The notes under the pieces were generated by a model, which saw nothing but the letters and a program-made list of their open reading frames with translations, was not told the DNA's origin and ran no database searches. Both the position numbers and the translations under genes were made by a program. Positions 4,034-25,442 of a stretch of 64,000 nt of DNA are shown one piece after another. The stretch covers positions 1-64,000 of the forward strand of contig NZ_MKKC01000072.1 in the NCBI RefSeq assembly GCF_001942255.1, written 5' to 3'. The stretch is from Nocardiopsis sp. CNR-923 (lineage in GTDB: Bacteria > Actinomycetota > Actinomycetes > Streptosporangiales > Streptosporangiaceae). Position 1 is the first letter of the stretch. Each line of letters begins with the position of its first letter.

Positions 4034-7000
4034 TCACCCCCGGTGGGAGCCGCCCGGGGCTCTCAGCGCGGTCTGCACCAGCCGCGCCGAACCGCCCCGC
4101 GCCACCCACGTGCCGCGACCGGGCGGCTGTGGCGACGCGTACAGCCTGGGTAGGAGCTGCCCCTCGCTGCGGTCGCCCGACATCACCAGAGCGCCGGTGC
4201 CGATCTCCCGCATCGCCTGCACCAGCGGGTCGAACAGTCCGCGCCCGGCACCGGCCACGCGGCGCGCCACCACGAAGTGCAGCCCGATGTCGCGCCCGTT
4301 CGACACGAACGGCACGAACGGCGCCAGCGGCTTCTGACCCGCCGTCGTCAGCACGTCGTAGTCGTCCGCGAGCACCACGATCCTCGGACCCCTGATCGCA
4401 CCCGGTTCCAGCGCGTCGAGGTCCCCGTCCTCGGGCAGACGGCCCTCCAGTTCCCTGGCGACGCCGCCCGCCAACCCCGCGCACACCCGCGGACTGCTCG
4501 CGTACCCGCCCGTGTACTCCTCCGGGACCACGTCCCGCAGGGTGCGCCTCGGGTCCATCACCGCGAACACCACCTCGTCGGAGCTGTACCGCTCGACCAG
4601 TCCCTCGGCCACCAGACGCAGCAGGTTGGTCTTGCCGCACCCGCCGTCCCCGAGGACCAGCAGGTTCTGGTCTGCGTCGAACAGGTCGAGCAACACCGGC
4701 TCCAAGGCCCGCTCGTCCACCCCGATCGGCACCTTCTTCGGCTCGGAGTCCCGGGTGGGCAGCGTGCGCGCGGGCAGTTCGTGCGGCAGGACGCGCACCT
4801 CCGGAGCGCGCTTGCCGCGCCAGGCCCGGTTCACCGAGCGCACGGCGGCCTGCACGATCTCACCGAGCCCCTCGTCGCCGGTGACGCCGTCGAACCTCGG
4901 CAGCGCCACCTGTCCGAACAACTCGGTGTCCGTCAGGGCCCGGCCGGCGCCCTGGGGCCGATCGTCTCCGCCAGTTTGCGGTCGATCGTCGACTCCGACG
5001 GGTCGTTCAGGCGCAGTTCCACCTTCTGGCCGAAGTTCGACTGCGCGGCGATGCGCACGTCGTTCCAGCGCAGCATCCCCGCCACCACGTGGACGCCGTA
5101 CCCGCCGCCGCGCTGCAACAGGTCGTTGACCATCGGGTCGATGTCCTCGAAGTCCTTGCGGACAGCTCCGAAGCCGTCCACGCACAGCACCACGTCGGCA
5201 CTGGCCAGCTCGGGCACCTCGCCTCGGGCGTGCTTCCGTCGCAGCTGCCGCACCGAGTCGATGCCCCGCTTCCGGAACACCTCCTGCCGGTGGTCCAGCA
5301 TCCCGCGTAGCTCCTCCACCGTGCGCCGCACCCGCTCGGCGTCGGTCCGCACGGCCACACCGCCCACGTGCGGCAGTCCGGCCAGGGATTGCAACCCGCC
5401 GCCGACCAGGTCCAGCCCGTACACGGCGACCTGCTGCGGTGTGTGCGTCAGGGCCAGCGACAGCACCATCGTGCGCAACAGGGTGGTCTTGCCGCTCTGC
5501 GGACCCCCGATGATCGCCGCGTGCCCTCCGGAGGCGGTCAGGTCCAGCTCCCACACGCCCTGCCACTGCTTGGTCGCGTCGTCCAACAGCCCGACCGGGA
5601 TGGACAGCTGAGTCCGCTCCCCGGGAAGCCGCAGCCCGTCCTCGGTCTCCTCCGGCGCGCCGACCACCGTGTCCAGGGTGGTCACGGACGGCAGCGGCGG
5701 CAGCCAGATCTCGCGTGTGCGCTCCCCGTGCCGCGCGAACTGGCCGACCATCACGTCCAACAGCGTCGGGCCGACCGTGCGGGAGGGCATCGGCGACTCC
5801 TCCGCGGCCGGTGCGTCCGCCCGCACCGCGGACGCGTCGTCCCGCTCGTTGAAGGCGGTGTACCGGCGCACCGACGGGGCCGCCTCGGTGTCCTCCTCGG
5901 CCACCGGCCCGCGGTAGGGCCCCGACACGTAGCCCGCCTTGAACCGCTGGTAGACGCTGGTGTCCACCTTGAGGTAGCCGAAACCGGGCAGGGACGGCAG
6001 GTGGAAGGCGTCGGGCGTGTTGAGCACGGTGCGGCTCTCCTCCTCGGAGAAGGTCCGCAGGCCCAGGCGGTAGGACAGGTAGGTGTCCAGGCCGCGCAGC
6101 TTGCCGCCCTCGATGCGCTGGCTGGACAGCAGCAGGTGCACGCCGATGCTGCGGCCGATCCGGCCGATCGACAGGAACAGCTCGATGAAGTCGGGTCGGG
6201 CGGTGAGGAGTTCGCCGAACTCGTCGATGATGACGAGCAGGTGCGGCAGCGGCGCAAGGCCGGGATCGTGCTGGCGCCTGAACTGGTAGTCGCCGATGCT
6301 GGCCACGTTCCCGGCGTCGCGCAGGACCTGCTGGCGGCGCTGCACCTCACCCGACAGGCTCGCGTGGACGCGCTCGATCAGCGCGGCGTCGTCCTCCAGG
6401 TTGGTGATCACCCCGGCGACGTGCGGCATGTCCTCGAAGGGGGCGAAGGTGGCCCCGCCCTTGTAGTCGACCAGCACCATGCTCACCCGCTCGGGCGGAT
6501 GGGAGGCGGCCAGGGCCAGGACGAGGGTGCGCAGCATCTCGCTCTTGCCGGAACCGGTCGCGCCGACGCACAGTCCGTGCGGGCCCATGCCCAGCTGGGC
6601 CGACTCCTTGAGGTCGAGCACGACCGGTTGCCCCATGTCGTCCACACCGATCGGCACCCGAAGGAACGCGCGTTCGCTGCGCGGCGACCACACGCGCCGT
6701 ACGTCCATCGCGGCCGGGTCCCGCACCCCCATCAGGGCGGGGAAGTCGATGTTGCCGCCTTCCTGCGCGCTCTCCTCGATGGACTCCGGGGAGAGCCGCA
6801 GCGGTGCGAGCATGCGGACGAGGCCGGAGAGCGTGGCGGCCGGGACGTCGTCCACGGTGCCGGACATGACCAGGGGGTCGGCGCCGCGCAGCTCCTCGAT
6901 CCGCACCTGGTCGCCGGTCACGGTGACGCGGACGTTGACGTCGCCGGGCTCGTCGATCTGCCGCGACACCAGGTGCAGCACGGTCACACCCAGGTCGGCC

Positions 7001-8031
7001 GGGTCCATCGTGTGGTCGGGCCGCACCAGTTCGGCGGCGACCCCGCCGTGGGTGTCGTGGACGACGATCAGGCGGCGGAGCATCCGGTACGCCTCGCGCT
7101 TGCCCATCCCGCGGCGGACCTCCGACGCGAAGTCGGTGCGCGAGCGCAGTTCGTCGGCGAGGAGCCCGCCCAACCGGCCGGGGTCGGGCGCGATGAGGCG
7201 GACCGCGGCCCCGTTCTCGCGTCGCCGCTGGTCCAGGACCTGCGGCAGCCACGGTAGCCAGGTCCAGTCGTCGGCGCGCCCGGCGGGATAGGCGACGGCC
7301 AGCCCCGCGTCCTCGGGGGCGTGGAAGGCGCCGAACTGGGCGGCCAGGGCGCGGACGAGGCGCATCACGTCCTCGCGCTCGCCGATGACGCTGACGTTCC
7401 CGGCCATGTCCAGGGGCAGGGTGAGCGGCATCTCCGGGATCGTCTCGAACCGGCGGATCGCGGCCTGGGCCTCGGAGAGCATGAACGGGTCCGTGGGGGT
7501 GAGGGCGGTGCCCTGCTCGGCCAGCCGCAGGCGGCGGCCCTCGGTCAGACCGGTGCCGATCCGCACCCGCAGGAAGTCGCGGTGGCGCCGACGGCGCTCC
7601 CACAGGCGCGTCGGGTCGCGGACGACGTCGTAGAGCGCCTCGGGCGGGGGGTCGAGCAACCTGGCGTGGGCTCGGGTGCGCTGCTCCCAGCCGCTCAGTT
7701 CCTCGCGCAGCTCCTCCAGGTACTGGAGGTAGAGTTCGCGCTGGTTGCGGCGCTGTCGGCCGACCTGGCCCCGTCGGGAGAACAGCATGGCGAGCGCGCC
7801 GAGGAGGGCCACGCACAGGAGCACGGCGCCGAGCGCCATGAACGCCGGGTTGCGCATGACCATCATGATCGTCAGTGACGCCATCATGCCCACCATCGGC
7901 AGGATGGACATGAGGGGGTTGCCCTGCGTCTTCCCGTCGGGCAGCGTGGGCGGCGCCTCCACCTCGTGGGGTTCCTGAACCGGAGTGGGGTGGACGGTCC
8001 GTGTCGGCCGGTGCACGACGCGCAGGCTCAT
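4034..8031 (-). CDS. eccC: Type VII secretion FtsK/SpoIIIE-type ATPase EccC (one frameshift)
   Basis: EccC is the motor and substrate receptor of the T7SS core in the inner membrane. The roughly 1332-residue product has two membrane helices at about residues 41-85, then three FtsK-type ATPase domains. Domain 1 has a canonical Walker A GATGSGKSE near residue 490 and Walker B LLVIIDEF. Domain 2 has GGPQSGKTT near residue 840 with a degenerate second motif (CVDGF). Domain 3 has GDGGCGKTN near residue 1127 and VVLADDYD. The frame breaks near 4955, where GGGG should be GGGGG; restoring one base joins the domains. The ATG at 8031 is preceded by GAGAGGAA. It is encoded in one piece, not split into EccCa/EccCb. 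Confidence 0.95.
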
Positions 8032-8171
8032 CGGCGTTCCTCTCGGCTCGGGCTGCGGGGATGGGCGGGTCTGGCCGGACGGAGACGTGCCCTGACGTGG
8101 GGGAGCGGAGTTCGCGGGGGATGCCGCGGCGGGCCCGCGGGATGCGCAGAACCCTATCGAAGTCGGTTCTG

Positions 8172-9607
8172 TCAGGACGTTCCGGAGGAGTCCGGCGACC
8201 CCTCGGGGCGCAGGTGCCCCATGAGGCTGCGGAAGCGGTCCCAGGCGTTCGCCTCCGTGCCGTTCCCGATCAGGTACCAGACGGCGGGGGTCATGGGCGG
8301 GCCGAACGGGACCGAGCGCACCGGGGCGGACAGGGCGCGGTCAGTCCCGATCGTCGAGACCGCCTCCGCTCCGAGGGCCATGCCCACGGGAATCGGCGCC
8401 CCCGACCACCGGGCCGGATAGGTCAGGTCGGACCGGCCGCCCATCCGGCGCACCGTCGCGTTCTGGAGCACGTCGCGTGCGGCGAGCTCCTTGACGACCG
8501 TGGTCAGGGCCGCCGTGTCGGGCTCCTCCCCGGGCTCGTGCCCCACCGCGAACGTGATGTTCTCCCGCACGCCGTTGGCGGTCCGCCCCACCCGTTGGGT
8601 GCCGGCGAACGGACGGACTCCCTCCCCCCGCACGCTCTCCGGCGGCCCGGAGAACGCGATGAGCGTCTGGGCGGGCACGCGTCTGCGGCACGTCGCGGTC
8701 ACGGCGTCGCGGTCCCAGGCGTGCGCCAGCGGTTCGCCGGTCCCCCACAGGGAGGGGAGGGCGCCGCCCAGGGTCTCGGCGAGGAGTTCCGCGGCCCCGC
8801 CCAGGAGGAGGTCGTCGGTGGCCGGGTGCTCCACGTTGACATCGACGAGCAGCTGTGCGCCCAGATCCCGCGCGGACCCCCGGAACGCCTCGTGCGGTCC
8901 GTCCTCGGCGGAGGCGTTCGGGTCCACGACGAACCCGGAGTCGGCGGCCCAGACCAGTGGGACCCCGGAGAACCCGTCGTAGTGGGCCGCGTCCGGCGCT
9001 GGACGACCCACCGGCAACCGGGACGTGCGACCAGGGAGCGAAGCGCGTACGTCAGTCGGCTGGCGGAGGGCGTGACGAGCTGGAGGCGGCGTCCCTCCCG
9101 TCCGTATTGGGCCACGGCGTCCAGGAGCCAGGGGGAGAGCGGCACCAGGGGGCGGTCCTGGAGCACGACGAAGCACTCGCCCGGGACGGCGGCGACCGCG
9201 GGGTGGTCGGCGGCGCCGTTGAGGTGTGCGTGGCTCCGGTCGAGGCGGCGTTCGGGCTCCCACAGCACACCGTCGTGCTCGTCGGCCAGGTACCGGGCGA
9301 ACCGGCGGACCACGCCCGCGGTGTCGACGTCCGGGACATCGGTCCCGTGCGCCTCCACCCAGTACGGGGAGGAGGGCAGGTCGTCGCTGACTCCGTCGGC
9401 CAGCAGGCGGTCGGCCTCGGCGGACGTCTCCAGCCGCTGGGCGGCCTGGAGGGCGGCCACGATCCGGCCGTCGTCGTCGCGCAGCTCCACCAGCGCGCCC
9501 TCGGCCACGAGCCGGACCCTCAGGGCGGGTCCGGCCTCGACCATGGCCCTGGTCAGGGACCGCCGGTCGGGCGGCTGGGACAGCAGGGCGACCACGTCGT
9601 GGCTCAA
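8172..9607 (-). CDS. T7SS-locus conserved hypothetical protein (DUF6177-like; one frameshift)
   Basis: A TTG start at 9607 follows GAGGAG at good spacing. The TTG overlaps the stop of the upstream small gene (TTGA). The product is about 478 residues once one missing base near 8998 is restored; the join falls between RPGCRWVVQ and APDAAHYDG. It has no signal peptide or membrane helix and no recognisable catalytic motif. The composition and position next to eccC match a conserved family found beside actinobacterial T7SS genes, which I recall as DUF6177. That name is from memory, not from a search. A role in secretion is inferred from position only. Confidence 0.6.
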
Positions 9608-11932: not shown

Positions 11933-13258
11933 ATGACCGCTTGGAGCCGGGTGACGCTCGTCGGTGAGGAGCGCCGGGTCGACGCCGTCCTGCCCGCGTC
12001 GGAGCCCATCGGCGCGCTCATGCCCGAGGTGCTCGACCTCCTCGGCGACGAGGTGGGCCACCCCGCCCGGTCGCGGCACCTGGTCACCGCCTCGGGCATG
12101 GTCCTGGCGGGCGACACCACCCTCGCGGACCGGCGGATCACCGACGGAGCGGTGCTGCGGCTGGTCAGTGCGCAGGAGCCGGTACCGGCACCCGTGGTGC
12201 ACGAGGTGCCCGAGGCGGTGTCCATGGCCCTGGACGGCCACCAGGGCCGGTGGAACCCGACCGCGGCACGGTGGACGTCCACGCTCGCGTTGGTCGTTCT
12301 GACCCTGAGCACGGGGTGGATCGTGTGGGGCTTCGCGACGGGAGGGGCGGCGATCGGCGGCATCGTCGCGGGCGCCGTGCTGCTTCTGGCGGTGGGGGCC
12401 GCGATCGGGCCGACGTGGCGCGAGCCCCTGGGCACCGCACTTGCGATGAGCGGCACGGCGATGGGCGCGCTGGGCCTGTGGTTGGCCAGTGACCTGTTCG
12501 GCTGGCCGCACTGGGTGCGCTGGGGCGGGATCGCCGCCCTGGCGGCCGGGGCGGTGCTGCTGCTCGGCTTGACCTCCGGGCTCGGCCGGGGAGGGCTGAC
12601 CGGTGGCGGGGTCGGCCTGGCGCTGGCGGCGGTGTGGTCGGTGGGGGCCGCGCTCGGTTTGCCGAACCACCAGGTCGCCGTGGTCATGGCCGTGGCCTGC
12701 GTGGTGCTGCTGAGCACGCTGCTGCGGTTGGCGCTGGTGTTCTCGGGACTGGCGGTGCTGGACGACAACCGCAGTTCGGGCGACGCGGTGACCCGGGCCG
12801 ACGTGCTCACCTCCGTCGCCGGCGCGCACCGGAGCCTGGTGATCGCGACCGTGGCGGTCGCGGTCGCGGCCGCCACCGCGGGGCTGGGGTTGGCCTCGGA
12901 GTCCAACCCCTGGACGGTGGGCCTGTCGGCGGTCCTCGCCGTGGTGGTCGCCAGCCGGGCGCGGTTGTTCCCCCTGATCGCCCAGAAGTCCGTGCTCATC
13001 GTGGCGAGCCTGGTCGTCCTGGTGAGCGCCCTGTTCGCGGTGGCCGAGGCCTGGCCATGGGGGGTGTGGTCCGCGTTGGGCGTGGCGGTCGCGGTCGCGG
13101 CGATTCCCGCGGTGGTCCTGTCCGTCGAACAGCCCGAGCACGTTCGAGCTCGACTGCGGGGAGTCACCAGCCGGTTCGAGGCGATCGCGGTCGTCGTCCT
13201 CATCCCGTTGGCGATCGGCGCCTTCGGCACCTACGAACGGCTCCTCGCAACGTTCTGA
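11933..13258 (+). CDS. eccD: Type VII secretion integral membrane protein EccD
   Basis: EccD forms the central membrane vestibule of the T7SS. The 441-residue protein starts with a ubiquitin-like YukD domain (about residues 1-80, with RVTLVGEERRVDAVLP and the GDTTLADRRITDG turn). It continues with about 11 closely spaced hydrophobic helices from residue 115 to the end, matching the EccD architecture. It is slightly shorter than typical (about 450-500 residues). GGAAGG precedes ATG 11933. It follows the TNT-fold gene by 67 bp and precedes the MinD-like gene by 12 bp, consistent with one operon. Confidence 0.9.
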   Translation: MTAWSRVTLVGEERRVDAVLPASEPIGALMPEVLDLLGDEVGHPARSRHLVTASGMVLAGDTTLADRRITDGAVLRLVSAQEPVPAPVVHEVPEAVSMALDGHQGRWNPTAARWTSTLALVVLTLSTGWIVWGFATGGAAIGGIVAGAVLLLAVGAAIGPTWREPLGTALAMSGTAMGALGLWLASDLFGWPHWVRWGGIAALAAGAVLLLGLTSGLGRGGLTGGGVGLALAAVWSVGAALGLPNHQVAVVMAVACVVLLSTLLRLALVFSGLAVLDDNRSSGDAVTRADVLTSVAGAHRSLVIATVAVAVAAATAGLGLASESNPWTVGLSAVLAVVVASRARLFPLIAQKSVLIVASLVVLVSALFAVAEAWPWGVWSALGVAVAVAAIPAVVLSVEQPEHVRARLRGVTSRFEAIAVVVLIPLAIGAFGTYERLLATF

Positions 13259-15815: not shown

Positions 15816-16529
15816 TCATGGCCCCGACCTCGCCAGGCCGTCGACCAGGGTGACCGCCTCCACAAGGGTCGGGGGGAGCGGAACCGCCCACACGCCGGCC
15901 CCGTGACCCCAGCCTGACTCTCGGCGCAACTCGGCCAGCCGTGCGTCGAGGTCCTTCGACTCCTGCGCGACCACCGCGATCCGGACCCGGCCGAGCAGGC
16001 ACACCGATTCCCCGCGGGTGAAGAACCGGCGCAACTCGTAGCCGAGCACGATCAGCCGGGCGGCGCGCCGCCACGGATCCATCGCCGGGTCCAGCGTCAC
16101 CACGACCAACCGGTGCTCCACGGCGGGAGGGGCGTCGTGGCCGATCGGGTACAGCTCGCCCAAGCGGGCCCTCAGGTAGGGCAGGGTCGCCAGGCCGGTC
16201 AGCGCGTCCCGGCAGGCGTCCTCCGACCGGCATCCGTCCGCCCACCCCTCAGCCATCGCTCTGACCAGCCGCAGCGGTGGATCACCCCACCCGACCGCCT
16301 CGGTGAACGCCGCCAGGTCCGCCAGGCTCTGCCCGACCCCGACGCCCGCCCGTGCCCGCGCCGCTCCCAGACGACCGGAGGCGTTCGCCAGACCGGACCC
16401 GGTCGCGAAGGACTCGCACACCGCGTCGACCGCCGGAGTCCACCAGCCGGCCCCCGTGTCCCACCCCGTTTCCCGGCTCCGCGTCGCCCACAGGCGCGCA
16501 GCTCCCGGGCACGGACCCTGTGGTCGCAT
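15816..16529 (-). CDS. Degenerate GGDEF-like protein divergent from the sigma factor
   Basis: This 237-residue protein has no signal peptide or membrane helix. Its middle part carries DALTGLATLPYLRARLGELY, the classic N-terminal signature of GGDEF (diguanylate cyclase) domains. It then has HRLVVVTLD, and ESVCLLGRVRIAVVA in place of the strand holding GGDEF. The catalytic GG(D/E)EF residues are absent (GRVRI), so cyclic-di-GMP synthesis is not expected. ATG 16529 is the most upstream reasonable start. The divergent position beside the ECF sigma gene suggests shared control, but this is inference. Confidence 0.55.
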   Translation of the reverse strand: MRPQGPCPGAARLWATRSRETGWDTGAGWWTPAVDAVCESFATGSGLANASGRLGAARARAGVGVGQSLADLAAFTEAVGWGDPPLRLVRAMAEGWADGCRSEDACRDALTGLATLPYLRARLGELYPIGHDAPPAVEHRLVVVTLDPAMDPWRRAARLIVLGYELRRFFTRGESVCLLGRVRIAVVAQESKDLDARLAELRRESGWGHGAGVWAVPLPPTLVEAVTLVDGLARSGP

Positions 16530-16760
16530 GCCCCGGCTCCCGCCGCGTCGTCACCCATGGCACCGCTCCCCCCTGTCGTCCGTTCCCCCGGCGCCGGTCG
16601 CGGCCCGCGCACCCGGGCCCGTCCGTCCGCCTCTGCCTCGGATTACGGAGATCGGTGGCGGCTATGACGCCGATGCGGGATATTTTTTCGGGGACCTGCG
16701 AAAACGACGCCGATCCGGCGTTCCTCCCAGCTGGCGGGGACTGTTGAGAAAGGACGCCGG

Positions 16761-19747
16761 GTGACCGACGCCGACGGCCATCACACAGAGGTGCTTACTG
16801 GTGACGACCAGTGCATCAAGCGGGTGCGCGGCGGTGACACCGCGGCCTACGGCGTCCTCTACGAACGCCACGGCCGCGCCGCGCGCGGTCTGGCCCGCCA
16901 ACTCCTGCGCGGGGAGGCCGAGGCGGAGGATGCCGTCGCCGAGGCCTTCACCAAGGTGCTCAGCGCCATCCAGCGCGGCCAGGGACCGACGGACTCCTTC
17001 CGCCCCTACCTGCTGACCGCCGTTCGCAACGCCGCCTACGACCGCGGACGCGGGGAGAAGCGCCAGGTCGTCACGGGAGACATCGAGAGCCTCGATGCGG
17101 GCGAGCCCTTCGTCGACCCGGCGCTCGCGGGCCTCGAACGCTCACTGATCGCCCGAGCCTTCCTCTCCCTCCCCGAGCGCTGGCAGGCGGTGCTGTGGCA
17201 CACGGAGATCGAGGGGGTCAAACCCTCCGAGGCCGCACCCGTCCTCGGGATGAACGCCAACGGCGTCGCCGCCCTCGCCTACCGCGCCCGCGAGGGCCTG
17301 CGGCAGGCCTACCTCCAGATGCACCTGGCGGGCGGGGGCGCCGCCGAGCCGTGCCGTCCGACCCTCGGCCTGCTCGGCGCCTACGTCCGGGGCGGCCTGG
17401 CAAAGCGGGACACCGCCAAGGTCGGTGCGCATCTGGACGGTTGCGCGGACTGCCGCGAGGTGTGCGCGGAGCTCATGGACGTCAACGTCGGACTGCGCGG
17501 GACCGTTCTGCCGCTGGTCGCGGGGGCCGGCGCCGCTGGCTACCTCGCCTCCGTCCCGGGCGGAGCCGCCACCGGCGCCTGGTGGGGTCGGATGTCGCGC
17601 GGTCAGCAGCAGGCGACGGCCGGAGCCGCCGCGACGACGGCCGTCGCGGTCGCGGTCGCCCTCGCGCTGGTGGGCGGCGGGGACCCGCTGCCGGATCCGC
17701 CGGGCGCCGCGCCTTCCGTTCCACCCGCGCGGCCCGTTCCCGCGGACGATCCTCCCGTGCAGGATCCCCCGCGGCACCCGGTCGCGCCGGTCACCGAACC
17801 GGTGCCGTCCGAGGAAACCGAGCCCGAGCCCGACCCTGAGCCCGAGCCTGAGCCTGAGCCTGAGCCCGAACCCGAACCCGTGGTCGTGCCGCCCGCGGAC
17901 GTGCCGGAGGCCGAGGTCCCCGCGCAGGACGCTCGCGAACCGCTGTTCGCGGCGGGCATCGACCGGTCGGGGCGCTGGTTCCGGGCAGCGACGGAATCAT
18001 GGTCATGGACGTGCGCAACATCGGCGCGGCCACCGTGGACGAGGTGGTCGCCCGCATCACGCTGCCGCCCGGGGTCGAGATGGTCGCCTCCGGCGGAGCG
18101 GGCAACGCGGTCTCCGGCGCGTCCGGCCACGGGGACTGGAGTTGCGCGGCGGGCAGCGGCGGCGGCCGGTGCGTGCACCCGGGCATGGACACGGGCCAGA
18201 ACGGCACCCAGTTCTTCGACGTACGGGTGGCCGGGGACGCCGGCACCGGGATCCCCGCCGCGGTCTCCCTGTCGACGGGTGGCGTCTCCGTCACCGCGGC
18301 GGGTGAGCGCGGCGTGACCACCGAGGGCGTGGCCGCGCGCTACGCGACGGCGGGGCGCGTCCGTACCGAGACCGTGGGCAACGCTCTGATGACGTGTGTC
18401 GAGCCGGATCTCCCCGAACCCCCGGAGGTACCGTGGCCGTGGCCCTGGCCCGTGCATCCGCACACACCCTGGCACGGCCACGTGCACGGGCATCCGCACA
18501 CACCTTGGCACGGCCACGCGCACGGGCATTGGGACGGGGGTCTGGGCATGTCTTCGGGCACGCGGCAGTGGGCGGTCCCCGAGCCGACGACCGACGCCGA
18601 CACCCGGCGGGTGCCGACGGGCGGCCGATCCGGTCTGGGACTGGAGGAGTCGACCGAGAACCCAGACGCCGATGGTGCCGGTGAGAGCGCAGGGAACTCG
18701 GAGGATTCGGCCGTGACCGAGGGTGAGGTCGGACTGGCGGGCGTCGGAGCCGACACCGAGGGCCCGGCTCCGTCGGAGGCGCCCGGTCACCCGGAGGGAG
18801 CCGGCTCGCCGCCGGCCTCCGGCGCGTCCGAACCGCGGGTGGGCCCCTCGGGCCCTGAGGAGCCCGAAGTTCAGGACGCCTCCGAGTTTTCGGTAGGTCC
18901 GGAACCCACGTCCATTCCCGAGGAGGACGGCCGCGCGGAGGAGGGGCTCTGCGCCCAGGCGCGCGCACGGGAGGGATACCTGCTCGACAACGACCACTGG
19001 GAGATGGCGCCGCTCGATCGGGACTGGAACCCCGACACCGTCTCCTCCAGTTCCGCGATCTGGGAACTGCCCGAGGGCGGCGTGGTGCGCTGGGCGGGCC
19101 TGTACTTCTCGGCGGGGGGCCGCCACAACGCCCCCACCGCCAGGATCAAGGGTCCCGCAGTGGACGGGTACCGAACCGTCGAGGCGGACGAGACCCGTGT
19201 CGTGGAACTGCCCGGCTACCCCGTCTACCACGCGTTCGCCGACGTCACCGACCTGGTGCGCGCCCAGGGCGGCGGCGAGTGGTGGGTCGCCGACGTCCCC
19301 GCGGCCGAGGGCCGGGGCCGCTACGCCGGGTGGAGCCTGGTGGTGGTGGTGGAGGATCCCCGAGTGGGCTCGTACAACCAGGCGATGGTGCTCGACCACA
19401 CCGACCTGGTCTTCCAGGGCGGCTCGGTCGGCTATGCCGTGTCCGGGCTGCTGCCGGCCGCCGTGCCCTCCACGCTCGACGTCGTGGTCTGGGAGGGCGA
19501 CGCGGGCCTGGACGGTGACTCGGTGGCGGTGGACGGAACCGTTCGCACGCCGCGGGGCGACGACGCGGGCGAGGCCAACTGCTTCGTCGGTTCCGCGCGC
19601 GGCGCCGTCGGGGATCCCGCCACGTTCGGGACGGACGTGGTCCGATTCGACGCAGTACTGGGACGTGAATCGGACATCCGAATCAGGTCACATCAGGACG
19701 CCGTGGTGGCGGGAACCATTGCTCTGACCGCACCCATGCGCACCTGA
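16761..19747 (+). CDS. Membrane-tethered ECF sigma factor with zinc finger and His-rich extracellular domain (one frameshift)
   Basis: GTG 16761 follows GAGAAAGGA. Residues about 23-95 form sigma region 2 and about 125-185 region 4 (LPERWQAVLWHTEIEG and an HTH). A zf-HC2-like segment (H224, C228, C231) follows, then a hydrophobic helix at about 285-308. Outside come a Glu-Pro repeat (about 353-373), a beta domain, a His-rich double repeat (about 565-590), an acidic linker and a C-terminal beta-rich domain (about 730-995, ending ALTAPMRT). A missing G in the GGGG run at 17969-17972 breaks the frame; repairing it gives 995 residues. ECF factors with fused zinc finger, membrane helix and external domain are known (for example the ECF53 type). 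Here sigma, anti-sigma-like and sensor parts share one chain. Confidence 0.85.
18455..18526 (+). repeat. Two tandem 36-bp repeats encoding a His-rich segment
   Basis: Positions 18455-18490 and 18491-18526 are near-identical 36-bp units differing at two positions. Each encodes a HPHTPWHGH(V/A)HG module, and a third partial unit (HWDGG) follows. The repeat lies in the predicted extracellular part of the sigma-factor fusion and could bind transition metals. Confidence 0.8.
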
Positions 19748-19945
19748 ACTCCCGACTCGGTATGACTTCCCGATCACGCTGTGTGGGTGGTGAAAGGGGC
19801 GAGTCACCCCGGAACTCCGCCTGTGCGTAGCGTGACCATAACCGTGAGTGTTCGCGGGTGGCACGCAAAACAAGACAGACTTGGCTAGGCTGTGGCCCGG
19901 TCATGGATATGGCCCCAGAGTCAACAGGGAAGGGGGCGGTGTCAC

Positions 19946-21678
19946 GTGGACCGCTGCGCGTTGTTCGTCGACGCGGGATACCTTCTCGCGGACGGCGCGA
20001 TGGCCGTACACGGAACCCGCAACCGGGACTCCGTCTCCTGGGACTACTCCGGTCTCGTCCAGTTCCTCAACGAGGTCGCGCGGGACCGCACCGGCCTGCC
20101 GCTCCTGCGCTGCTACTGGTACGAGGCCGTCGCCGACGACCGGCGCACCCAGGAACAGGACGGCATCGCCGACATCCCCGGCATCAAGTTCCGCGCGGCC
20201 CGGATACGGCCCGGTCGCCGCGAGGGTGTGGAGAGCTACGTCCAGCGCGACCTCACCACCCTCGCGCGAACCGGTGTCCTGTGCGACGCGGTCCTGGTCA
20301 GCGGTGACGAGGACATGGCCTCGGTCGTCGCGGACGTCCAGGACCTGGGCGTGCGCGTCACCGTCGTGCACGTCTCGGTCGAGGGCAACTGGACCATCTC
20401 CCGAACCCTGCGCCGGGAGTGCGACGACCTCATCGAGATCGGCGCCGGCCACCTGCGCCCGTACGTCAACCTGCTCACCAGCGGTGGTGCCACGCAGGAG
20501 ACCGCGGCCAAGACCACGACGCCGTTCTCCAACGGCCGTGCCCGCTCCGCGCCTGACACACCCCGCCAGCCGGTCGAGGTCCAGCCCGGCGGCGGCAGGG
20601 TCGAGCCGGTCGGGGGCGCGGGCGGCGGTCTCGACGCGATCTTCGCCAGCACGGGCCCCCAGTCCGTTCCGCAGGGCAGCGCCATGGACCAGCTGCGCGC
20701 GATGCGGCGCTCGCTCGCCCAACAGCGCGGCGACCACCTCGCCGGACCCTCCGCGGACAGCCCGGCGCCGGTCCCATCGACGCCAACGGGTTCCCCTCCG
20801 GCGCCCAGGCGCCGATGGGCGGCAGCGGCGCCTTCCCGAGCACGACGCAGACGGCCGCGGGCGGACACGCGCGGGGCGGGCAGAACGGCCAGGCTCTCTA
20901 CTCCGGGGGAGACCAGGCCGCGCACGGCACCGAGCAGAACGGGTACGGCCTGCCCGGCAGAGCGGTGCCGGGGCAGGTCGGGCCAGGCGCCCACCAGCAC
21001 CCGGCGACCGGACCCCAGTCCGCGTTCACCAACGGCACGGGACCGCAGCGGTCCTTCGCCTCGGGCACCGGCCCCAGCGTTCGTTCGCCTCGGGCACGGG
21101 ACCGCAGCGGTCCTTCGCTCGGGGACCGGCCCCCAGCGTTCGTTCGCCTCCGACACCCACCAAGGCACCCGCCTCCGCAGAGAAGCGGGCCGCCACCCCA
21201 GACGGACCCGCGTTTCGGGCCGGGCGACACGCCGGGTTTTGGGGGTGCGAACGACGCAAACCCTACCTATGGGACCAGTACGGAAACTGACGCCGCTGGC
21301 CGCGGCGAGGCGGCTCCCGGATACGGGGGTTCGCCGCGTACTGGTCCCGAGCTTGACGGCCCCTTCGGCCGACGGGGACTCCAGGAATCCAGTCCCAGTC
21401 CTGGATATCCCCAGCAGACACACGTCGTCGCGCATACCGTGGACGATGCGGTGCATGTCGCACACAGAGAAGGGAACGACTTCGCGGAGTCGATCGCGCG
21501 TGAGGCGCCCGCCCTGTGGGTCGAGGCGGTCCTCGCCCGGAGGCCCCGGATGCCCTCCGACCTGGAGGCGCGTCTGCTTCAGGGCTCTGCGCTGCCGATC
21601 GACCACCTGCTGAGGGACGAGGTCCGGGACGGACTGCGCCAGGGGTTCTGGCAGGCACTGGAGCGCGCCAGACCCTGA
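19946..21678 (+). CDS. NYN-domain (PIN-like) protein with long disordered tail (frameshifted)
   Basis: GTG 19946 begins a NYN/LabA-type domain: RCALFVDAGYLL with the first catalytic Asp, VQRDLTTLARTG with the second, and AVLVSGDEDMASVVADVQDLG with the third (residues about 1-170). NYN domains are metal-dependent RNase folds. A Pro/Gly-rich tail follows with four 10-residue GTGPQRSFAS repeats and a conserved helical C-terminus (about 21470-21678, PALWVEAVLARRPRMP). One base is missing near 20775, and further shifts in the repeats make several short frames appear open. The corrected length is about 577 residues. Target RNA is unknown. Confidence 0.75.
21034..21152 (+). repeat. Four 30-bp tandem repeats in the NYN-protein tail
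   Basis: Four units of about 30 bp encode GTGPQRSFAS-like modules; units 1 and 3, and units 2 and 4, are most alike. The visible length (about 119 bp) is one base short of four units, and the reading frame changes inside it. This fits indel errors in a repetitive region. Confidence 0.65.
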
Positions 21679-22591: not shown

Positions 22592-22745
22592 CCCGCTGGT
22601 GGTTCACCCCGACGGGGTGAGGCAAGAGGGAACCCGGCGCGCATCCGGGACTGCCCGCCACGGCGAGTGGGATCGGACTCCGCACACGTACTGGAATCCC
22701 CCGAGAGACCCCCGGGGAGCGACGCTCAGGAGACCGACCGCACGC
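22592..22745 (+). promoter_or_regulatory. Cobalamin (B12) riboswitch upstream of nrdAB
   Basis: Conserved cobalamin-riboswitch elements occur in the correct order. These are a GGTGGTTC segment, GAGGGAACCCGG (about 22626-22637), ATCCGGGACTGCCCGCCAC (about 22643-22661), ACTGGAATC and the B12 box AGGAGACC at 22728-22735. The aptamer starts a few bases after the putative -10. A hairpin near 22762-22787 could act as expression platform. In streptomycetes a B12 riboswitch shuts off the B12-independent class I reductase when cobalamin is available; the same logic is likely here. Confidence 0.85.
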
Positions 22746-22929
22746 CCGGGGACCTGCCACCGGCGCGCACCGGACCGTGCGCCGACGACGGGGCTTCGAG
22801 AGCGGGCCACCGCGACCCACCGGTCACGATGACCACGCGCGCTGAGCGTGTCGGCCCACCGGTGTGCCGTGGCCGTGTTTCTCGTGTCCCTCCCCGCCGG
22901 GACTCTTCTACCGAGGTTGGAGCCGCTGT

Positions 22930-25442
22930 ATGACCCTTGACGTCGAGGCCGTGCCCGCATCCGTTCGGCCCGAGCCGACCCACGACGGTGCGCCCCCCGC
23001 CGCCGCCGACCGGATCGCGCACGTCGTGACCGAGGCCTGCGGGCGGCTCACCGGTGTTTCGGCGGACAAGGTCCTCACCGAGGCGCGCCGCGGCTTCTAC
23101 CCCGCAATCTCGGACGCGAGGTGGAACTGGCCCTGGTCATGGCCGCCCGCAGCTTCGTGGAGGTCGACCCCGACTACTCCTACGTGGCCGCCCGCCTGCT
23201 GCTGGACACGCTCCGCCGCGAGGCCCTCACCTTCATCGCCGGCATCCCCCAGACCGCCAGCCAGTCCGAGATGGCCGACCGCTACCCCTCCTACCTGGCC
23301 GCCTACGTCGGGCGCGGTATCGACCTCGGCCAGCTCGACCCGGCGCTGGCCACGTTCGACCTGGAACGCCTGGGCGCCGCACTGCGCCCCGAGCGGGACG
23401 AGGACTTCACCTTCCTCGGCATCCAGACCCTCTACGACCGCTACTTCCTGCACAGCGACGAGGTCCGCTACGAGCTGCCGCAGGCGTTCTTCATGCGGGT
23501 GGCCATGGGCCTGGCCCTCAACGAGGACGATCGGGACGCCCGCGCGATCGAGTTCTACGAGCTGCTGTCCTCGTTCGACTTCATGGCCTCCACCCCCACC
23601 CTGTTCAACTCGGGCACGGTGCGGGCGCAGCTGTCCTCCTGCTTCCTGACCACCGTGGGCGACGACCTCCAGTCGATCTTCCACGGCATCAGCAACAACG
23701 CGATGCTCTCGAAGTACTCGGGCGGACTGGGCAACGACTGGACGCCGGTGCGCGGCCTGGGCTCGCACATCCGCGGCACCAACGGCAAGAGCCAGGGCGT
23801 CGTCCCGTTCCTGAAGATCGCCAACGACACCGCGGTCGCGGTGAACCAGGGCGGCAAGCGCAAGGGCGCGGTCTGCGCGTACCTGGAGACCTGGCACATC
23901 GACATCGAGGAGTTCCTCGACCTGCGCAAGAACACCGGTGACGAGCGCCGCCGCACGCACGACATGAACACCGCGAACTGGGTCCCGGACCTGTTCATGC
24001 AGCGGGTGGAGCAGGGCGGCACCTGGACGCTCTTCTCCCCGGACGAGGTGCCCGACCTGCACGACAAGTACGGGTCCGAGTTCGCCAGGACCTATGCCCA
24101 CTACGAGGCCGAGGCCGCCGCGGGCCGGATCAAGGTCTCTAAGCGGGTCCAGGCCGTGGACCTGTGGCGCCGCATGCTCACCATGCTGTTCGAGACCGGT
24201 CACCCGTGGATCACGTTCAAGGACCCGTGCAACCTGCGCTCGCCGCAGCATCACTCGGGCGTCGTGCACTCCTCCAACCTGTGCACCGAGATCACGCTGA
24301 ACACCAGTGCCGACGAGGTCGCCGTCTGCAACCTGGGCTCGGTCAACCTGGCCCAGCACACCGGCCCCGGCGGTCTGGACGCCGAGCGCCTGCGCCGCAC
24401 CGTGCGCACCGCCGTGCGGATGCTCGACAACGTCATCGACGTGAACTTCTACACGATCCCCGAGGCGCGCCGCGCGAACATGCGCCACCGCCCCGTGGGT
24501 CTGGGCCTCATGGGTTTCCAGGACGCGCTGTTCAAGCTGCGCACCCCGTTCGCCTCCGAGGGCGCGGTCGACTTCGCTGACGAGAGCATGGAGCTGATCA
24601 GCTACTACGCCATCGAGGCGTCCATGGAGCTGGCGGTCGAGCGCGGTTCCTACGAGACCTTCGACGGCTCGCTGTGGAGCAGGGGCGTCCTGCCGATCGA
24701 CTCGCTGCGGCTGCTCGCCGAGGCGCGCGGCGGCGACCTCGACGTGGACCGGGGCGAGACCCTGGACTGGGACTCGCTGCGCGAGCGCGTGCGCACCACC
24801 GGTATGCGTAACTCGAACGTGATGGCGATCGCCCCGACCGCGACCATCGCCAACATCACCGGCGTGAGCCAGTCGATCGAGCCCGTGTACCGGAACCTGT
24901 TCGTCAAGTCGAACATGTCCGGCGACTTCACCGTCGTCAACCCGTACCTGGTGCGCGACCTCAAGGAGCGCGGCCTGTGGGACGACGACATGGTCTCCGC
25001 CCTGAAGCTGCACGACGGCAGCCTGGGCGACATCGACCGGGTTCCCGACGACCTGAAGGCGCTGTACGCGACGGCGTTCGAGCTCGACCCGAACTGGCTC
25101 GTCGATGCTGGTTCGCGCCGACAGAAGTGGATCGACCAGGCCCAGTCGCTGAACCTGTACATGGCCGCTCCCAGCGGTCGCAAGCTCGACGCGCTGTACC
25201 GCCGTGCCTGGCGCTCCGGACTGAAGACCACGTACTACCTGCGTTCGCAGAGCGCCACCCACGTGGAGAAGAGCACCCTGAAGGGTACGGACGGCCGCCT
25301 CAACGCCGTGTCCTCCGGCTCGGCTCCGGCGGCCGCGGCCCCGAGCCCCGCGCCCGCCGCGCCCGCCGGCGCGGAGGAGTTCGAGATCGTGGAGGGCCAG
25401 GCGTGCTCCATCGAGGACCCCGAGTGCGAGGCCTGCCAGTAG
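22930..25442 (+). CDS. nrdA: Class I ribonucleoside-diphosphate reductase, large subunit (one frameshift)
   Basis: NrdA reduces ribonucleoside diphosphates to deoxyribonucleotides using a radical delivered by NrdB. The 837-residue product shows an ATP-cone-like N-terminus ([13 protein letters not shown]), active-site LSSCFL and SNLCTEI cysteine motifs, the GLMGFQD segment and [16 protein letters not shown]. The C-terminus is ECEACQ with the CxxC redox pair. The start ATG 22930 lies about 185 bp after the riboswitch. A missing G at about 23118 (GCGAGG for GCGGAGG) breaks the frame between YPAISDA and [11 protein letters not shown]. The error context is the same as one in pyrE, so it is probably artefactual. 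Confidence 0.95.

Follow-up and report, generated by a model that had tools for sequence, protein, structure and literature searches.

In actinomycetes related to Nocardiopsis sp. CNR-923, an ECF sigma factor is joined in a single polypeptide to an anti-sigma-like zinc finger, a membrane helix and an external part made of modules that also occur in surface proteins. We analysed the first 64,000 nucleotides of contig NZ_MKKC01000072.1 from this strain (hereafter the window) and the loci of its relatives, and conclude that the fusion of sigma factor and external part is real. Specifically, a scan for proteins with the same outermost domain, which we call the tip, found 275 relatives, and in 71 of the best 80, retained as a set of loci, the sigma factor and the tip lie in one open reading frame (ORF). 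The general idea of a sigma factor fused to anti-sigma and transmembrane parts has already been published; the layout of the sensor, a DUF11-like stalk carrying a DUF3344-like tip, is new as far as the openly available literature extends. The features of the gene in the window are as follows.

16761..17699, + strand: sigma, anti-sigma-like and transmembrane half with a GTG start, in ORF 16761-18317 (alignment A2)
16857..17063, + strand: sigma-70 region 2 (PF04542, residues 33-101, E 6.4e-14)
17145..17294, + strand: sigma-70 region 4 (PF08281, residues 129-178, 22.4 bits, below the cut-off of 25.7)
17352..17456, + strand: zf-HC2 anti-sigma-like zinc finger, C198/H224/C228/C231 (PF13490, E 9e-9)
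17499..17555, + strand: weaker hydrophobic helix (residues 247-265, KD 1.42)
17619..17675, + strand: transmembrane helix, probably N-in/C-out (residues 287-305, KD 2.02)
17676..17935, + strand: Pro/Glu-rich linker, holding a 6-nt repeat at 17818-17880
17936..17999, + strand: interval of the reading-frame change (from ORFs and relatives; single-frame copies exist in relatives)
17969..18316, + strand: DUF11-like stalk domain with a conserved Cys pair (profile-profile match)
18329..18397, + strand: first tip segment, ending in a conserved Cys; it also opens the tip of secreted-looking relatives
18398..18949, + strand: hypervariable loop of 184 residues, bounded by two conserved cysteines of the tip (from Cys spacing and relatives)
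18950..19744, + strand: core of the tip domain, DUF3344-like, 265 residues (alignment A1; weak PF11824 match)

One chain in relatives and two frames in the draft assembly

The first-pass annotation of this DNA had described a chain running from sigma factor to external sensor, and the domain order that it saw is real. It had named the occurrence of sigma and external parts as separate genes in homologues as a point against a single chain; such a split is present in just three of the best 80 of the 275 tip relatives (L125, L134 and L138), and in six more of these 80 (L111, L117, L118, L131, L132 and L183) the tip lies at a contig end. The one-chain reading is thus upheld by the relatives, and by the zinc finger, which resembles an anti-sigma chain of known structure (described below), but not by an unbroken frame in the window. 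More broadly, the second half of the gene is matched in 36 of 40 genomes of the genus (the strain's own genome included, and a few over short stretches alone), and among 200 genomes sampled from the family the first half is matched in 135 at E 1e-20 and the tip in 97 at E 1e-8.

The fusion is not universal in relatives. One of them, L103:6694-7959 (genus group g34), beside an NYN gene, stops directly behind sigma region 4, lacking the zinc finger and transmembrane helix, and its 16-kb locus contains no tip match. Others, L292, L293, L294 and L077, keep the linker and have no tip, and L079 likewise gave no tip match; for these tipless relatives the tip was searched in any frame.

The source assembly is a draft genome of 152 contigs, and the single 995-residue frame read by the first-pass annotation is absent from it. 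The interval 16761-19747 spans 2987 nt, which is not a multiple of three and so does not form a single frame; the called ORFs show a first frame closing at 18317, while the external part, tip included, continues in another frame to 19747. These positions rule out one intact 995-residue frame in the window, and an end of the frame near 18317, the other finding that the annotation had listed against itself, is true of the assembly as it stands. Comparison with the closest relative places the frame change at about 17936-17972; this relative, nearest among the best 80 of 275, is L104 from Nocardiopsis sp. FIRDI 009, and the two proteins share 92% identity across 249 aligned columns in the sigma part and 82% in the tip. 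The frame break in the window is likely a draft error, because other genes of the same draft are broken too: the ribonucleotide reductase at 22621-25439 needs two frames, as does 4040-8247, the counterpart of a 1398-residue ORF in a relative. It is on these two clear genes that the argument leans; a general count, into which antisense ORFs are mixed, gives 12 frame breaks in 16 gene chains when the ORFs of relatives are compared with the window and 13 in 19 in the reverse comparison. If the break were instead a true feature of the strain, the product would be a tipless membrane sigma factor resembling L292-L294 and L077, and the genomes of L294 and L293 (G045 and G069) are indeed without a tip match at E 1e-8. 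We regard this as very improbable, given that the tip frame in the window is still open and close in sequence to that of L104, and that two frames are also spanned by the two genes just described.

An ECF sigma factor with an anti-sigma-like zinc finger

The GTG start at 16761 agrees with those of relatives in an upstream alignment, and the Pfam matches to sigma-70 region 2, sigma-70 region 4 and zf-HC2 all fall within residues 33-232. Both sigma regions named by the first-pass annotation are therefore found, region 4 just under its Pfam cut-off, and TIGR02937 is matched at 62.2 bits (cut-off 42.9). With sigma2 and sigma4 present and regions 1 and 3 absent, the protein has the composition that defines an ECF sigma factor. 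For the N-terminal part we built a profile, A4, of 47 rows, comprising the window protein and 46 relatives out of the 71 with a single ORF. This profile matches ECF sigma factors of known structure; its positions 4-173 are similar to the ECF sigma factor structure 1or7 chain A (E 2.5e-10), and positions 198-237 are similar to chain B of 3hug (E 7.1e-4), a structure that we take to be SigL with its anti-sigma factor RslA. The H224/C228/C231 finger noted from the letters alone is confirmed by the zf-HC2 match, and these ligands, with C198 in addition, are kept in 47 of the 47 rows. The H-x3-C-x2-C pattern and the similarity to 3hug chain B together characterize a ZAS domain, for which zinc binding is predicted.

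Membrane helix and linker

The hydrophobic helix that had been noticed after the finger is present at residues 287-305, and in the window it is preceded by two K/R residues and followed by none, although in some relatives (L136, L146) the K/R flanks are equal. The chain is probably oriented N-in/C-out. A weaker helix at residues 247-265 has a summed insertion score of 5.2, versus 1.2 for the helix that follows. This weaker helix may belong to the anti-sigma domain instead of crossing the membrane a second time, and it could alter the topology. The Glu-Pro run previously described as a stalk element is also present, and is encoded by the 6-nt repeat within the linker.

A stalk and tip related to modules of surface proteins

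The profile of the stalk matches a set of 14 repeats, which were cut from surface proteins by motif and which we take to be DUF11-type, with a probability of 94.9 (E 4.2e-8). Neither a Pfam match to the stalk nor a Pfam carbohydrate-binding family was found in the window protein or in the 45 of 71 family ectodomains scanned. Beyond the stalk, a C-terminal domain of the 265 residues attributed to it by the first-pass annotation is recovered in alignment A1. The window tip matches PF11824 weakly (E 0.0081, with 16.2 bits where the cut-off is 27.2), as do few of its kin: three of 21 A1 rows at E 0.1, and three of 45 A3 rows at E 0.01. A more distant protein from another family group, L258, fits the A1 profile and reaches 31.1 bits with PF11824, above that same cut-off. 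A search by sequence found no solved homologue of the tip (best E 0.62), and in a sample of the phylum the tip is matched in 15 of 396 genomes, the strain's own included.

Part of these matches were translated, and similar tips are found there in proteins that look secreted. In L185, L186, L187, L190 and L194 a signal-peptide-like start is followed by the tip and then by repeats, and L189 has the same order up to the point where its frame breaks off; L191, L193 and L195, from a genus group that we take to be Streptomyces, are stand-alone, secreted-looking tip-domain proteins of about 400 residues or slightly more. These secreted-looking DUF3344-like/DUF11-type surface proteins have the same two kinds of outer module as the window protein; unlike it, they have no sigma part, and their tip comes first, after the signal-peptide-like start. 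If the surface proteins are anchored at their C-termini, the tip would be the distal part in both arrangements. The conserved Cys pairs of stalk and tip would suit a location outside the cytoplasm. The portion of the adhesin literature accessible here lists a DUF3344 cluster among fibrillar-adhesin-like proteins and leaves it functionally ambiguous (PMC9210967).

The tip also contains the His-rich double repeat of the first-pass annotation. The repeat exists (36 nt, 18454-18529), but its place is in the tip loop 18398..18949 and it is no part of the stalk. The loop of the window protein contains 12 His, and at least eight are found in the window and five of the 71 relatives alone; on this count we rejected a metal sensor built around the repeat. 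Among the 71 relatives (from the best 80 of 275) the loop is short in 47, with 40 residues or fewer (median 6), and exceeds 40 in 24, and these 24 are all recorded as Nocardiopsis, Streptomonospora, Murinocardiopsis or, in one case, Glycomyces. Two ways of measuring the loop give different lengths in a few rows (L106 and L120, for example), with their class unaffected, and L122, with 41 residues, is borderline. Because loops with at least eight His are this rare and long loops are confined to few genera, the His repeat is, to judge from these alignments, a decoration of one lineage that lies outside the core layout.

A common chassis with different outer domains

The sigma half reaches further than the tip-bearing proteins, and in a sample of the class its alignment, A2, is matched in 66 of 197 genomes at E 1e-35. 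Ten proteins with this sigma, zinc-finger and transmembrane chassis were picked from 38 loci and their outer domains scanned with Pfam, which gave NPCBM in two, ricin in two (one of them, L287, below the cut-off), Ig plus ricin in one, Big_6 in one, CAP in one, DUF3344 in one and no named globular domain in two. In the same Pfam scan L279 had no sigma match and L287 no zinc-finger match. A chassis protein at L291:2949-4412 (- strand) ends in a CAP domain (PF00188), a further type of outer domain.

We placed these proteins in a tree of 55 rows, in which the outer-domain labels of the other rows were assigned by eye; the labels need 13 changes on this tree, versus a mean of 33.3 when shuffled. 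In a second tree of 44 rows, from which 11 long-branched or near-copy rows had been dropped, the three rows of NPCBM type group together as a clade (99/100), and support for the branch separating NPCBM and ricin types from the window's side is 99/97. All tip-bearing rows and their tipless kin form one clade in the best tree, a grouping that is not supported (34/19). The picture is of a common chassis whose outer domains follow clade, and the end of the chassis seems to behave as if it were an exchangeable outer domain. L292, L293 and L294 are placed among the tip-bearing rows (three changes, at least two of them forced), and their missing tip would most simply reflect repeated loss.

Relation to known fused sigma factors

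ECF48, ECF52 and ECF53 are described, in the available text of two papers, as sigma factors with fused anti-sigma or transmembrane extensions (PMC8999054; PMC5826349), and the remark of the first-pass annotation that fused types such as ECF53 exist is thus in print. ECF52 and ECF53 are the closest known kind. Its further remark that the sensor layout was unfamiliar agrees with our literature search, in which the accessible texts describe no sigma factor with a sensor of the DUF11/DUF3344-like kind; one may be reported in a subscription paper.

According to the open part of its description, ECF52 is confined to Actinobacteria, and its member SCO4117 from Streptomyces coelicolor combines a sigma factor, zinc finger, transmembrane region, Pro-rich linker and external domain in a single polypeptide, the C-terminal end being a carbohydrate-binding module (smart00776) (PMC5826349). 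The chain of the window family is built in the same order, but its end is the DUF11-like stalk and DUF3344-like tip. The same difference appears among our loci, where L273 and L275 end in NPCBM and the window protein in the DUF3344-like tip. The genus group of L273 and L275 is taken to be Streptomyces. At the loci L273-L275 (10 kb) no NYN neighbour was seen, unlike in the window. From domain and genus group we infer that the NPCBM-type rows of our trees are ECF52. Membership of the window protein in ECF52 is rejected, with no carbohydrate-binding domain in the window protein or in 45 of the 71 ectodomains and with the NPCBM-type clade separate at the support values given above. The truncation experiment on SCO4117, as far as the available text reports it, concerns ECF52 and not the family of the window protein (PMC5826349; PMC8999054).

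The other comparisons are by description alone. ECF53 is likened to the window protein through its C-terminal anti-sigma/transmembrane fusion in Actinobacteria, as given in the accessible text (PMC8999054). Some ECF52 and ECF53 proteins carry glycosyl hydrolase or carbohydrate-binding domains, according to the part of a further paper that is open (PMC10766802); such domains were not found in the window protein or in the 45 family ectodomains scanned, and the layout of the window family would extend the description of ECF52 and ECF53 past carbohydrate-binding sensors. IutY (ECF243) of Pseudomonas putida combines a sigma factor with a membrane anti-sigma part and undergoes stepwise proteolysis, in the account available to us (PMC8999054), and it belongs to a cell-surface signalling system for a siderophore.

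A proposed mechanism of sigma factor release

We lean, with some reserve, towards a model in which the protein would be a membrane-tethered, self-inhibited ECF sigma factor that is freed by proteolysis once its tip meets a ligand. The zinc-finger domain would restrain the sigma factor in cis, keeping it at the membrane, while stalk and tip stand outside the cell, and the ligand of the tip would lie in or beyond the wall and might be a polymer, a neighbouring cell or one of the cell's own surface proteins. Contact with this ligand would expose a membrane-adjacent stretch to a first protease, intramembrane cleavage would come next, and the freed sigma factor, its inhibitor domain removed or relaxed, would direct RNA polymerase to its targets. 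Cleavage and release are proposed because of the analogy with the published ECF52 proposal and with IutY, both as described in the accessible text (PMC5826349; PMC8999054), and everything in the model beyond the domain layout is drawn from the same analogy. Relatives without a tip (L292-L294, L077) or ending after sigma4 (L103) imply that not every relative would work this way.

Two other readings retain the chassis and change what it senses or how it responds. The tip could sense sugars or a cell-wall polymer as in the ECF52 proposal, its DUF3344-like fold being a lectin that replaces NPCBM; other chassis proteins do bear NPCBM or ricin-type domains, and the ECF52 model, in its openly readable form, is of this kind (PMC5826349), but stalk and tip match no carbohydrate-binding family and the DUF3344 cluster is, in the available text, functionally ambiguous (PMC9210967), and we consider this reading rather unlikely. 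Still more doubtful is a conformational switch without cleavage, in which a signal passing through the transmembrane helix would loosen the inhibitor domain and the sigma factor would stay tethered. The ECF52 proposal, as far as its accessible text goes, permits such a switch (PMC5826349); however, a tethered sigma factor would have to reach promoters from the membrane, and the long, variable linker would be a poor rigid transmitter.

Within the favoured model of proteolytic release, a signal of contact or adhesion is attractive because tip and stalk are common to surface proteins. We raise, as a speculative extension, that the protein may be a contact sensor: when its adhesin-type tip attaches to a surface, to an adjacent hypha or to a partner in the wall, this event, perhaps felt as pulling force, would be converted directly into transcription by one protein, across much of an actinomycete family; the chassis would be general, and the outer domain (adhesin-type, lectin, Ig, CAP or NPCBM) would be swapped between lineages. 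If the model is right, actinomycetes can link a domain of the surface-protein type to gene expression through a single protein, and swaps of outer domains could help to find the signals of many uncharacterised sigma factors.

Genomic neighbourhood

Three features flank the gene.

15816..16529, - strand: divergent neighbour gene with a DPLTGL motif, which we take to be GGDEF-like (at a conserved position in relatives)
16654..16686, + strand: conserved 33-nt upstream element, possible promoter or operator of the sigma gene (62/75 regions)
19892..20800, + strand: N-terminal part of an NYN-domain protein (PF01936)

The divergent neighbour has no Pfam or NCBIfam match, and in relatives its motif reads DPLTGL...YLRTRL; it is perhaps a degenerate GGDEF protein. 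This divergent gene with its GGDEF-like motif is found upstream in 20 of 40 loci, in 47 of the 72 loci with room in a second set (from the best 80 of 275) and also at L257 and L258. Further upstream, at 11933-13258, lies an EccD/YukD gene of a type VII secretion system, and such a gene is likewise upstream in several relatives.

The 33-nt element is present, with at most eight substitutions from either of two reference forms, in 62 of 75 upstream regions and in none of 375 pair-block shuffles, the references having been drawn from the same, related sequences, which favours the count of 62. It may be the sigma gene's own promoter or operator, and autoregulation through it is a guess. At three mismatches or fewer it has one match in its own genome, and among the genomes of eight relatives the other form of the element has one match each in two, in either case immediately before the sigma gene, and none in six; on these counts we rejected it as a regulon motif. 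A shorter core gives 54 sites at up to two mismatches, versus 14 for the reversed pattern, and seven sites in the window at up to three mismatches, versus a chance mean of 2.75.

Downstream, the NYN gene follows in the same orientation as the sigma gene in 40 of 40 and 80 of 80 loci (two sets that share genomes, the latter the best of 275). In the window the region concerned is 19892-21678, where an ORF that matches the C-terminal part of the NYN protein in relatives runs in another frame, and past the NYN domain there is a tandem repeat (29/59 nt) at 21034-21157.
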